42,188 bases of DNA from an uncultured Lachnospiraceae bacterium (GTDB taxonomy: Bacteria > Bacillota > Clostridia > Lachnospirales > Lachnospiraceae). Location of the stretch: the NCBI GenBank assembly GCA_905235465.1, contig CAJOLP010000020.1, forward strand, positions 1 through 42,188, written 5' to 3'. Positions within the stretch are counted from its first letter, which is position 1, and the number at the start of each line of letters is the position of its first letter. Shown here one piece after another: positions 33,771 to 40,147 of the stretch. Below the pieces are notes generated by a model. The model saw only the letters and a program-made list of their open reading frames with translations, was not told where the DNA came from and did not search any database. The translations under genes were made by a program, and so were the position numbers.

Positions 33771-35000
33771 ATGTATTCGATCGAAGAAGTTAGAAGAGAA
33801 GATCCGGTGATTGCTGCCGCGATCGAAAAGGAGATCAAGAGGCAGAATGATCACATCGCTTCTGAAAACTGGACGAGCAAGGCTGTGATGGCGGCGATGG
33901 GCAGTCCTTTGACCAATAAGTACGCGGAGGGCTACTCCGGCAAGCGCTACTACGGCGGCTGCGGCGTCATCGACGAGATCGAGACGATCGCCATCGAGCG
34001 GGCGAAGGAACTGTTCGGCTGTGACTATGCCAACGTGCAGCCCCACTCCGGCGCGCAGGCGAACCTTGCGGTCGAATTCGCGATCCTTAAGCCCGGCGAT
34101 ACCCTGATGGGCATGAATCTGAACCAGGGCGGCCACCTCACCCACGGAAGCGCCGCGAATATTTCCGGCACATATTTTAATGTCGTCCCTTACGGTGTCG
34201 ATGAGAACGGATTTATAGATTACGATGAGCTGAAGCGCATTGCTGTTGAGACCAAACCGAAGCTGATCATCGCGGGCGCGTCGGCCTATGCCAGAACCAT
34301 TGATTTCGCGAAGTTCAGAGAGGCAGCGGATGCCTGCGGCGCCGTCCTGATGGCGGACATCGCGCACATCGCGGGCCTTGTGGCGGCAGGGATTCATCCC
34401 AGTCCGTTCCCTTACGCGGATGTGGTCACGACCACGACCCACAAGACGCTGCGCGGTCCCCGCGGAGGACTGATCCTCGCCAATGAGGAGGCAGCCAAGA
34501 AATACAACTTCAACAAGAGCGTGTTCCCCGGCATCCAGGGCGGCCCTCTCGAGCATGTCATCGCCGCGAAGGCGGTCTGCTTCAAGGAGGCACTGGACCC
34601 GTCCTTCAAGGTCTACGCGCAGAATGTGATCGACAACGCGCAGGCGCTGTGCAAGGGCCTTATAGCGAGAGATATCGATATCGTCTCCGGCGGAACGGAT
34701 AACCATCTGATGCTTGTGGACCTGACCAGATACGATCTGACCGGCAAGCAGGTGGAGAACTGGCTCGATGAGGCAAATATCACGGCCAACAAGAACACGA
34801 TCCCCAATGAGCAGAGATCTCCCTTCGTGACCAGCGGCATCCGCCTGGGATCCCCGGCGGCGACCACAAGGGGCCTGAACACAGAGGACTTTGACCGGGT
34901 GGCGGAGGCGATCTCCGTCGTCATCAAGGAGCAGGAGGCCGGCATCGATAAGGCCAGGGCGATCATCAAAGAGATCACGGACAAGTATCCGCTGGATTAA
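33771..35000 (+). CDS. glyA: Serine hydroxymethyltransferase
   Basis: [38 protein letters not shown]. Confidence 0.97.
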
Positions 35001-35170: not shown

Positions 35171-35199
35171 TTGACAAATTGCATTTCATTTTGTACAAT
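35171..35199 (+). promoter_or_regulatory. Near-consensus sigma-A promoter
   Basis: TTGACA (35171-35176), 17-nt spacer, TACAAT (35194-35199). Confidence 0.85.
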
Positions 35200-35204
35200 A
35201 ATCT

Positions 35205-35898
35205 CAACAACAGAGGAGAAGAAAAGGTGACGAGAAGATCACCAATCAATCCCCAGCAGCTACGGGAGGGGAAGAAAGGAAGGACATATTGTTCCACCGG
35301 AGTGAAATGTTGGAAGTAACGTTAACAAGCCACAAAATATCCGATTTCGAGTCCATGGTTAGGCGGTGAGTTTCCATATTAGCAGGATATCTCAAGAAGC
35401 CTCGGACAGAACTCTAATAGCTGGTCAGATGTTCGAAGAAAAGCGCATAGGAAGTGAGAGCAGCATAAAGCCATCACCGGAGTGCAGCAGTAGCAGAGCA
35501 CAGAACAGGCGAAAAGATGAGATCGATCGGAATGAAAACCGGGAAGTTATCAGGAAGTAAACCGGAGACCGGAAAAATGCAGGATGAAAAGCAGGGATGC
35601 TTTAGATCATCGCATTGATCAAACAGTAGGTTGCGGATCGGTAATGAAGCGGTAAGTTTTCGAAAGAGATCACCATTAGAGAAACTGAAAGAGAGTGGAA
35701 GGGAGCTTCGAGGTTAAGTGTTTAACACTTGATGATGCAGGAACATCCTGATATGAACATCGCAGTACAATCAGTACAAAAGTAAGAGGTGGAAAAAGAA
35801 AGAGGATCATAGCGGAGGTACAATCCATTGGACAAAGTACACTAGGAAAGGGTATTGATCAGAAGTCAGATCGATACCCTTTCCGTTTTGTCTTTTTT
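35205..35898 (+). ncRNA. Putative large (~690 nt) structured noncoding RNA
   Basis: Between a strong promoter and a strong terminator; longest ORF is 64 codons without a convincing RBS; purine-rich, with several local hairpins (35226-35243, 35583-35611, 35716-35730, 35734-35761) and a repeated CACCGGAGTG motif. Confidence 0.75.
35845..35898 (+). terminator. Intrinsic terminator of the putative ncRNA
   Basis: GGAAAGGGTATTGATC-AGAAGTCA-GATCGATACCCTTTCC (16 bp, one G-U), followed by GTTTTGTCTTTTTTT. Confidence 0.93.
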
Positions 35899-35916
35899 TA
35901 ATTTGCCGCGAAATAT

Positions 35917-38900
35917 TTACTGCGCAATACCCGCCGCCTTTGCGGCGTTTTTGTTTGCCGTCGCCAGCATGAGCTTGATGCGGTTGAGCTGGTTGACCTC
36001 GCTGGCGCCCGGGTCGTAGTCGATGGCGGCGATGTTGGCCGTCGGATAGATCTTGCGGATCTTCTTGATGACGCCCTTGCCGACCACGTGGTTGGGAAGG
36101 CAGCCGAAAGGCTGGATGCAGACGATATTTTCAACGCCGGAGTGGATCAGCTCCACCATCTCGCCGGTGAGGAACCATCCCTCGCCGGTCTCGTTTCCGA
36201 TGCTGACGATCGGTTCCGCGTATTCCACGATCTTATAGATACTGACCGGCGCGTCGAAATGGACGCTCCGTCTGTATTCGTTGTAAATAGGGCGGAGCAG
36301 CGTCTCGATCGTGCGGATGCCCGTATTGCACAAGGCCGCGGCCTTCTTGCTGGTGCCCAGGTGGTTCGCTTTGTAGACCTGGTTGTAGAAGCAGTAGAGC
36401 ATAAAGCCCATCAGATCCGGCACGGTGGCCTCCGCGCCTTCCTTTTCCAGCAGGTCCACCAGATAATTGTTGGCCGCCGGCGCGTATTTGACCAGGATCT
36501 CACCGACGACGCCGACGCGCGGCTTGCGCTTCTCATCGATGGGGATCCTGTCGAAATCACGGATCATCTGTTTGCACATCCGCTGGACCTTCGGGATGTT
36601 GAGGCCGCTGGTCGTGGTCAGATAGTCGGTGCAGATGCGCAGCCACTTCTGATGGCACTCCTCGACGCTTCCCTCCCGGAGCTCATAGGGCCGCATGCGG
36701 TAAATACAGCGCATCAGCACATCTCCGAAGACGAGACAGGAGCTTTAAATTGACCTTAAAGCCCGGGTTCTCCTCGAGCCCGGAGAGGTTGGCGCTGATC
36801 ACGGGGATCTGGCCAAGGCCCGCCTTTTTGAGGGCGCGTCTGATAAAGCCTACATAGTTGGACGCGCGGCATCCGCCGCCGGTCTGGGACATGATCACGG
36901 CCGTGTGGTCCGGGTCGTATTTGCCCGAATCCAGCGCCTCCATGATCTGACCCACCACGAACAGCGAGGGGTAGCAGGCGTCATTATTGACATATTTGAG
37001 CCCGTAATCCACGGCGCGGCGGTTGTCGTTGGGCAGCACCACAACGTTGTAGCCGCAGGAATTGACCGCCGGCTGCAGCAGGTCGAAGTGGATCGGGGAC
37101 ATCTGCGGGCAGAGGATCGTGTAGGTCTCCCGCATCTTTTCCGTAAAGGGCACCTTCTCGATGGCTGTGGGCCGCATGGTGCGCCTTGTGTTTTTGGCGT
37201 CGCGGATGCGGATCGCCGCGATCAGGGAGCGCACGCGGATACGCGCGCTGCCGAGCGTGTTGACCTCGTCGATCTTGAGGCAGGTGTAGATCTTGTCGGA
37301 TCCGGACAGGATGTCGTCCACCTGGTCGGTGGTCACAGCGTCCAGGCCGCACCCGAAGGAATTGAGCTGGATCAGGTCCAGATCCTCTCTGGTGCGCACA
37401 AAGCTCGCCGCCGCGTACAGGCGGGAGTGATACATCCACTGATCGAGAACGACGATGGGCCGCTCGGGCTCAGCCAGATGGGAGATGGAGTCCTCGGAGA
37501 GGACCGCGATCCCGTAGGAGTTGATCATCTCGGGTATGCCGTGGTTGATCTCCGGGTCGATGTGGTAGGGACGGCCCGCCAGCACGATGCCCTTGACTTT
37601 GTGCTCCTGCATATACCGAAGCACTTCTTCGCCCTTGCGCTGAATATCCCGGCGGCAGTTCATCAGTTCTGTCCAGCCGGCATATACGGCCTTTTCCACT
37701 TCCTCCGCGGGAATCTCCGAGAATTCCGCCTTGAGCGCCTGACTGACTGTCGCGACGTTCGTAAAGGCCATGAAGGGATTGCGGTAGAGCACTTCACCCC
37801 GGGTGATCTCCTCCACGTTATTGCGGATGTTCTCGGGATAGGAGGTCACGATGGGACAGTTGTAGTGATTGTCCGCGTTCTCAAACTCCTGCCGCTCATA
37901 GAACAGCGAGGGGTAGAAGATAAAATCGACGCCCTTATTGATCAGCCACATGATGTGGCCGTGCACGAGCTTTGCGGGATAGCAGGCGGATTCGCTGGGG
38001 ATCGACTCGATGCCCATCTCGTAGACCTGGTGGGTGGAGAGGGGTGAGAGCACGACGCGGTATCCGAGCTTTCCAAAGAAGGTCGCCCAGAAGGGGTAGT
38101 TCTCGTACATGTTGAGGACGCGGGGTATGCCCACCGTGCCGCGGTAAGCATCCTTTGCCGGCAGCGGTTTGTAACCGAAAATGCGCCCCAGTTTGTATTT
38201 GTAGACGTTCGGAATGTCGTTTTTGCGGACTTCCTGCCCCAGACCTCTCTCGCAGCGGTTGCCGGAGATATATTCGCGGCCGCCGCTGAAATGGTTGATG
38301 GTGAGGCGGCAGTTATTATTGCACCTGCCGCAGTTCCTAAGGGAAGTCTCGTACTCGAGGGTCTCGATCTCCTCAAAGGAAAGCATGGTGCTCTCCTGGC
38401 CCTCATACCGCTCGCGGGCGATCAGCGCCGCGCCGAAAGCGCCCATGATGCCGGCGATGTCGGGACGGGTCACCTCGCCCTCCGCGATCAGCTCGAGGCT
38501 CCTAAGGACGGCGTCGTTGTAGAAGGTGCCGCCCTGGACCACGATATTGCGGCCAAGCTGGGAGGCATCGGATACCTTGATGACCTTAAAGAGCGCGTTC
38601 TTGACGACAGAATAGGCCAGGCCTGCCGAGATGTCGGCGACCTCCGCGCCTTCCTTCTGCGCCTGCTTGACGCGGGAATTCATAAAGACGGTGCACCGCG
38701 TGCCCAGATCGATGGGATGCTCCGCGAACAGGGCCTCCTGCGCGAAATCCTGCACCGAGTAGCTCAGGGAGTTGGCGAATGTCTCGATAAAAGAACCGCA
38801 GCCGGAGGAGCACGCCTCATTGAGCAGGACGTTGTCCACGGCGCCGTTCTTGATGCGGATGCACTTCATGTCCTGTCCGCCGATATCGAGGATGCAGTCC

Positions 38901-40147
38901 ACGCCGGGGTCAAAGAAGGCGGCCGCGTAGTAGTGCGCGATGGTCTCTACTTCCCCCTCGTCCAGAAGGAACGCGGCCTTGAGCAGCGCCTCGCCGTAAC
39001 CGGTGGAGCAGCTGCGCACGATGCGCGCGCCGGGGGGAAGAAGCTTATGGATCTCTGTCATCGAGCGGATCGCCGTCTTTAAGGGGCTCCCCTCATTGCT
39101 GCTGTAGAAGGAGTAGAGGAGCTGCCCGTCCTCCCCCACCAGCGCAAGCTTTGTGGTGGTGGAACCGGCGTCGATGCCCAGATAGCAGTCGCCGCAGTAG
39201 GAGGCCAGATCGCCCTTGATCACGCGGGCCTTGTCGTGGCGCTCGCGAAACTCCCTGTATTCCTCCTTGGAGGCAAAGAGCGGGTCCATACGGCCGATCT
39301 CGAACTGCATGCGGATCTCGCCGGCGAGCCTGCCGCGCATCTTAGTCAGCGGGAGGCTGACGTCCTCCTTCGCGTTCATGGCGCTTCCCATGGCCGCGAA
39401 CAGATGGGAGTTCTCCACGTCGATGGTGTGCTCCTCATCCAGGTTCAAAGTGCGGATAAAGGCGGCCTTGAGCTCCGTCAAAAAATGGAGAGGCCCGCCC
39501 AGAAACGCGACGTGGCCGCGGATCGGTTTGCCGCAGGCCAGTCCGCTGATGGTCTGATTGACCACCGCCTGGAAAATGGAGGCGGCCAGATCCTCTTTGG
39601 TCGCGCCCTCGTTGATGAGGGGCTGAATGTCGGATTTGGCGAAGACGCCGCAGCGGGCGGCGATCGTGTAGAGGGAGTGGTAATCCTTAGCGAATTCATT
39701 GAGGCCCGCGGCGTCCGTCTGAAGGAGCGCGGCCATCTGGTCAATAAAAGAGCCCGTGCCGCCGGCGCAGATGCCGTTCATGCGCTGCTCAACGTTGCCG
39801 TTCTCAAAGTAGATGATCTTGGCGTCCTCGCCGCCAAGCTCGATGGCGACATCCGTCTTGGGCGCGATGTGTTCCAGCGCCGTGGATACGGAGACGACCT
39901 CCTGCACGAAGGGCACTTTGAGATAGTTGGCAAGCGTAAGGCCTCCCGAGCCCGTGATCACCGGGTGGACAGTGCATTCGCCCAGCTTGTCATAGGCCTC
40001 ACAGAGAAGCTCGTAGAGCGTCCTGCGGATATCGGCGTTGTGACGGCGATAGTCCGCGAACTGAATATTATACGCCGGATCAAGAATGGCGATCTTGACC
40101 GTCGTAGATCCTATATCGATGCCTAAAGTAAAATTTTTGTCTAACAC
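35917..40147 (-). CDS. Acyl-CoA dehydratase activase (BadF/BcrA-type ATPase repeats plus CoA-enzyme-activase/HgdB-like C-terminus), split by a +1 frame change near 36710-36740
   Basis: ORF 40147..36683 (FTLGIDIGSTTVKIAILD; CYLGIDAGSTTTKLALVGEDG; GGQDMKCIRIKNG) continues in ORF 36720..35917 (VFGDVLMRCIYRMRPYELREGSVEEC...) in the +1 frame. Confidence 0.85.

Follow-up and report, generated by a model that had tools for sequence, protein, structure and literature searches.

In the gap downstream of glyA, an uncultured Lachnospiraceae bacterium appears to encode a structured RNA belonging to a hitherto undescribed family with vertical inheritance. The RNA is predicted to be produced as a transcript of its own and to end in a micro-ORF of a few codons, and is proposed to act in trans as a dock for ribosomes. 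Taken whole, this is our leading reading, held with slightly less than even confidence; its components differ in strength and are graded below where the evidence for each is given.

A predicted transcript between glyA and a convergent gene

Within the window, by which we mean the whole 42,188-nt stretch of DNA analysed, the RNA occupies an intergenic gap flanked on its 5′ side by glyA (SHMT, 33771–35000, + strand) and on its 3′ side by a convergent BcrAD_BadFG/DUF2229 CoA-activase-like gene. The original prediction placed here a promoter and a terminator bracketing ~690 nt with no credible ORF, and both signals were confirmed (Table 1); five terminator-like sites were found in the region versus 0.7 in shuffles of the same region. 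A TTGACA promoter stands at the corresponding position in nearly all homologues, and promoter, conserved blocks and terminator all recur across loci of the genus, so that the interval is predicted to be an independent transcription unit whose own promoter and terminator are kept in homologues. A hidden protein was considered and rejected: the longest internal ORF (64 aa) has no Pfam match and the sequence evolves as RNA.

The neighbouring CoA-activase-like gene is split in the window into two overlapping frames (35917–36720 and 36683–40147, − strand) and is a single ORF of ~1416 aa in relatives (locus L109); the split is an apparent frameshift or assembly error.

Table 1. Sequence features of the predicted RNA, in window coordinates.
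Feature	Position	Strand	Remarks
Sigma-70-type promoter, TTGACA-17-TACAAT	35171..35199	+	Score 11/12; recurs in homologues
Predicted transcript, ~690 nt	35206..35899	+	5′ end inferred from the −10 box; homologues
5′ hairpin, GGTGA-cgagaaga-TCACC	35226..35243	+	Sequence shared by some members of the genus (33-nt block, 91–94% identity)
5′ RBS-like element without start codon, GAAAGGAAGGAC...TTCCACCGGA	35274..35301	+	Relatives: AAAGGAGGTACGGACCACC(A/G)AAAAC; by eye
Window form ATTTCGAGTCC of conserved motif TTC(A/G)AGTACA	35344..35354	+	
Core helix, 5′ strand, GCGGTG (6 bp, long-range)	35363..35368	+	Covariation
Variable insert within core helix, ~390 nt	35369..35757	+	~25–55 nt in compact relatives
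Insert subdomain, three stacked stems AATGC/GCATT, GATGA/TCATC, AAAGCA/TGCTTT	35576..35616	+	Covariation
Core helix, 3′ strand, CATCGC	35758..35763	+	Covariation
Hairpin GTAC-AATCA-GTAC	35765..35777	+	Relatives: GATAC/GTATC, GATAC/GTGTC, GTGCC/GGCAC
Conserved purine block GAGGTGGAAAAAG	35786..35798	+	Consensus RATGGAAAGAG
Shine-Dalgarno GGAGG of micro-ORF	35814..35818	+	9 nt ahead of start codon
Micro-ORF TTG GAC AAA GTA CAC TAG (MDKVH)	35828..35845	+	Stop overlaps first base of terminator stem
Intrinsic terminator	35845..35899	+	16-bp stem 35845–35884 and T-rich tail

Covariation supports a compact core with a variable insert

Compared with shuffled sequences, the RNA region folds with z = −3.5 when the terminator is included and −2.5 without it, against z = 0.0 for a coding control of the same length inside glyA. 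Single-sequence folding energy is by itself weak, modest support, and conservation decides. The central element is the long-range core helix, flanked by the motif (A/G)AGTACA on its 5′ side and by the block AGTAC-loop-GTAC on its 3′ side. In a set of 24 sequences, each of its six pairs shows changes on both sides, with 96.5% of cells paired (98.2% in a set including more divergent members), while sliding the helix out of register lowers pairing to at most 71%. Absence of covarying pairs in homologues had been named beforehand as grounds for giving up the prediction; compensatory changes were found at all six core-helix pairs and in the 35576–35616 helix as well.

Given that the 5′ strand of the core helix had been located by complementarity, at most ~24 nt from the motif, a check for circularity was made. 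Matched with its own partner strand, the helix had 5.5 of 6 Watson-Crick positions and was perfect in 19 of 38 cases; matched with strands of species differing at three or more positions, it had 3.8 of 6 and was perfect in 0 of 402. This excess of own-strand pairing answers the concern. In the window itself the covariance-model alignment runs past the 390-nt insert and draws its score mainly from the 3′ part, for which reason the core helix was located there separately.

Several local hairpins had also been proposed. The one at 35583–35611 is real and lies inside the longer helix 35576–35616, in which 9 of 18 pairs have undergone compensatory change; GGTGA/TCACC at 35226–35243 was found in the window with its sequence conserved in the genus. 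The hairpin at 35716–35730 was likewise confirmed in the window sequence. At 35734–35761 the outer GATG/CATC pairing is doubtful: covariation assigns bases 35758–35761 to the helix with 35363–35368, so the conserved structure probably does not include this outer pair. The GTAC-loop-GTAC hairpin, adjacent to the core helix, maintains its pairing through sequence changes in relatives. The length of the RNA is plastic, ~300 to 750 nt among family members, around a core of ~300 nt. On this comparative evidence, the existence of a structured RNA family is close to certain.

Two sequence elements of the RNA body recur beside the helices. Near the 5′ end, the element AAAGGAGGTACGGACCACC is, by eye, similar to the ribosome-binding site (RBS) at the 3′ end and has no start codon. 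Of 62 genomes of the genus, 34 contain the block GTACAATCAGTACA, about once per genome; beyond the genus, an order-wide search with this 14-mer returned only chance matches.

Distribution within the Lachnospiraceae

The RNA was detected by blastn in 18 of 37 genomes of the window genus and by covariance-model search in 36 of 62. Many genomes of the genus without a match are incomplete MAGs; 12 of 26 good genomes also have no copy, which indicates that the RNA is dispensable in some species. At the inspected loci of the genus it always lies 3′ of glyA and, where visible, 5′ of the convergent CoA-activase gene. No blastn match was obtained in genomes of 24 other families of the order.

Beyond the genus, a pattern scan of genome contigs returned Lachnospiraceae MAGs, mostly from ruminants, together with one cultured isolate, Kineothrix sp. 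MSJ-39, whose copy is locus L104; matches at L106, L110, L121 and L129, as well as L081, were excluded as chance. With model R1 there were 15 carriers among 397 Lachnospiraceae genomes, one per genus (15 genera), and with model R2 22 carriers among 396 genomes, in 18 genera. Almost all covariance-model matches were confirmed by eye (L155 looks false and L188 is unconfirmed), giving at least 20 genera besides that of the window. The counts of carriers and genera from these family searches are lower bounds, first-pass scoring taking few candidates per genome. Order and class samples outside the Lachnospiraceae gave no match to the covariance models. Upstream neighbours in other genera are often lysC or a LUD-domain gene, and at L104, L109 and L174 glyA is also found upstream of the RNA, a link between the locus in the window and that seen across the family.

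No copy was found in the phage and plasmid collections, nor, by exact pattern, in viral contigs; a mobile or phage origin was rejected on these grounds and on the fixed synteny at glyA. Tandem copies within one genome were seen twice, at L164 (G459:C57:183442-184342) and L197/L209 (G070:C27:4180-5047), and the ORF of the second copy in G459 is reduced to ATGGGATAG. We read the RNA as a member of a vertically inherited structured RNA family of Lachnospiraceae that is absent from Rfam.

We found no description of the family in the literature as far as its text was available to us, and large candidate lists such as that of PMC8040213 (structures of 27–219 bp) could hold fragments of it. In Clostridium phytofermentans, a strong noncoding transcript that lacks annotation lies close to a GH gene (PMC5171806); this is a lead only.

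A micro-ORF at the base of the terminator

All intact copies end alike: GGAGG and a spacing of 8–11 nt lead to a start codon, and after a few codons the stop falls at the foot of the terminator stem. In 49 distinct sequences the start is TTG in 38, ATG in 9 and GTG in 2, a tally partly conditioned by the ORF regex, which demanded [ATG]TGG; the tally of stops (TAG 24, TAA 14, TGA 11) is unconditioned. The ORF has five codons in 35 of these sequences and six in 12, and its second codon specifies Asp or Glu in 47. Of 32 sequences, 28 have a stop ahead of the stem in frame 0, versus 7 and 12 for the two remaining frames, with the reservation that a stop near the stem is partly favoured by terminators starting with A-rich arms. 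The distance from start codon to terminator stem is 15–21 nt (median 16).

Serine at codon 3 is written as AGY as well as TCA, and 36 different peptides occur among the 49 sequences; given such variation beyond the acidic second residue, the sequence of the peptide may be unimportant. From these regularities we consider it likely that the micro-ORF is translated. The label "noncoding" in the original prediction therefore has to be revised: no conventional ORF is present, but the label missed the conserved RBS at 35814–35818 and the conserved 5–6-codon ORF at 35828–35845, which is very probably translated.

The same ending recurs in shorter units. A second unit of ~150 nt in the same genus (L050:5780-5990, L051–L053, L190, L195, L202, L205 and L207) runs from a TTGACA promoter through AAAGGAGGTACGGTCCAAAGTACAA to GGAGGTACAATCCA with an MDKNH ORF and a terminator, the structured middle missing. 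Retention of the 5′ element, RBS-ORF and terminator in these coreless paralogous units supports the view that what stays constant is the module of ORF and terminator. In a very short unit, L192 (G064:C121:16025), nothing separates AAGGAGGTACGGTCCA from ATGGATGTATTCTTTGGATAA (MDVFFG), after which comes a terminator.

Alternative explanations

The family could in principle belong distantly, or be related, to one of the known classes of large RNA (ROOL, GOLLD, OLE, raiA/ModT); the original prediction allowed this for ROOL, GOLLD and OLE, beside a new class. Similar size, solitary transcription and rumen or gut hosts speak for this, and ModT is also transcribed from a SigA promoter in clostridia (PMC11706538). 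The Rfam search that the prediction had called for, covering ROOL, GOLLD, OLE and related models, was nevertheless negative: at gathering thresholds the window had no match and 17 homologous loci returned tRNAs only; at E<=10 the interval gave chance matches only, and two compact relatives gave nothing useful at E<=1. ROOL, GOLLD, OLE and raiA were never listed in any of these searches. ROOL and GOLLD are carried by phages and prophages, close to tRNA islands (PMC12286853), whereas the present RNA was not found in the phage, plasmid and viral collections and keeps a fixed chromosomal place beside glyA. ROOL (RF03087), GOLLD (RF01998) and OLE (RF01071) are, like it, large solitary bacterial RNAs, some of them from rumen, but the family described here is plastic in length, has a core of only ~300 nt and closes with an RBS, a pentapeptide ORF and a terminator. 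The raiA motif or ModT RNA (RF03072) shares more, being a standalone structured Bacillota RNA with a SigA-type promoter, an intrinsic terminator and a trans role; its core structure and motifs differ, however, the micro-ORF sets the window RNA apart, and the family is confined to Lachnospiraceae in the samples searched. We regard membership in a known class as very improbable, and conservation with covariation favours the other option, a new structured class. Even less credible is a small RNA that titrates CsrA through its many GGA motifs in a purine-rich body. The window RNA does have 26 GGA (z 2.3 versus mononucleotide shuffles), but it has no excess of ANGGA and compact relatives have no clear GGA excess. 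The CsrA gene is absent from the window genome and present in one of 19 genus genomes searched, one in which no copy of the RNA was detected; unless CsrA was missed in incomplete MAGs, its absence excludes titration.

More weight attaches to the genes downstream. A co-directional GH3 gene is among the next three genes at 15 of 18 loci outside the window genus, and at L104 and L113; the RNA is solitary, as first described, in the window genus, whereas in other genera it usually has this neighbour, whose N-terminal stretch is basic. With a leader peptide and a terminator, the classical anatomy of an attenuator, the RNA could be a long leader controlling a membrane-anchored, NagZ-like GH3 gene, with ribosome movement on the micro-ORF opening the terminator; the window genus would then have lost the target and kept the leader as a remnant or put it to new use. 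Against this, the window genus retains the promoter, the core, the ORF and the terminator even with a convergent gene as the next neighbour, and the RNA is intact in the window genome, in which there is no close GH3 orthologue (best E 1.5e-7). A promoter-like site (>=9/12) is present at 11 of 18 loci of other genera, mostly starting within the terminator 3′ arm, versus 0 of 14 in the window genus, so the GH3 gene seems to have a promoter of its own. At L096, L104, L113 and L132, the −35 box (TTGATA/TTGATG) of such a site lies in the 3′ arm of the RNA's terminator, with a TATAAT-like box ~18 nt further on and GH3 after it. No alternative antiterminator pairing was found, the search for one not being systematic. 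Leader-peptide attenuators such as antibiotic-responsive leaders with a uORF and terminator also place a short ORF beside an intrinsic terminator ahead of a gene; they differ from the RNA of the window genus in having a co-directional target, the latter having a long covarying core and a stop at the stem base, which is not an antiterminator layout. A pure GH3 attenuator is possible, though on balance unlikely and not our preference. Less probable again is a messenger for a micropeptide, with the pentapeptide as product (a signal or enzyme modulator) and the RNA body setting only stability or translation. It would fit that the RBS, the start, the stop and the length of the ORF are conserved while synonymous changes occur, as would the short units that retain the ORF and not the core, but conservation of the peptide is poor, no export signal is present, and the covarying core and insert would be left unexplained. 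Dual-function sRNAs (RNAIII/hld, SgrS/SgrT, SR1/SR1P) are likewise regulatory-looking structured RNAs with an ORF; here, by comparison, an ORF of 5–6 codons is fused to the terminator and its peptide is not conserved.

A proposed ribosome dock and its meaning

At our best guess, the RNA would stand alone and use its 3′ end to dock a ribosome. It would be made as its own transcript, from the strong promoter to the intrinsic terminator, and its micro-ORF would be translated. Initiating ribosomes give toeprints at +15 to +17, marking their downstream footprint. Since ~16 nt separate the start codon's first base from the terminator stem, a distance close to this footprint, an initiating ribosome on the start codon would abut the hairpin, and a ribosome elongating on the micro-ORF would have to open it. 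The RNA would then bind or count initiating ribosomes, and a trans action is proposed for the window genus; at loci with a downstream GH3 gene, ribosome loading could also alter read-through into that gene. That the 3′ end works as a dock is suggested by this geometry, and we advance it tentatively, with less assurance than the reading as a whole; in any particular regulatory output we place little confidence.

If this reading is right, the RNA may represent a new kind of ribosome-docking RNA, in which an ORF one footprint long holds an initiating ribosome flush with the 3′ hairpin, a start-less RBS-like element sits near the 5′ end, and a body that varies around a small core senses or tethers ribosomes; we think it rather doubtful that all of this applies. 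An RBS with a 5–6-codon ORF at the base of a terminator is overlooked by gene finders, for which it is too short, and by noncoding-RNA screens, for which it is coding. The anatomy of the RNA opens the way to direct testing and to a link with the neighbouring cell-wall GH3 gene, and a new RNA family supported by covariation is added for a dominant bacterial family of the human and ruminant gut.
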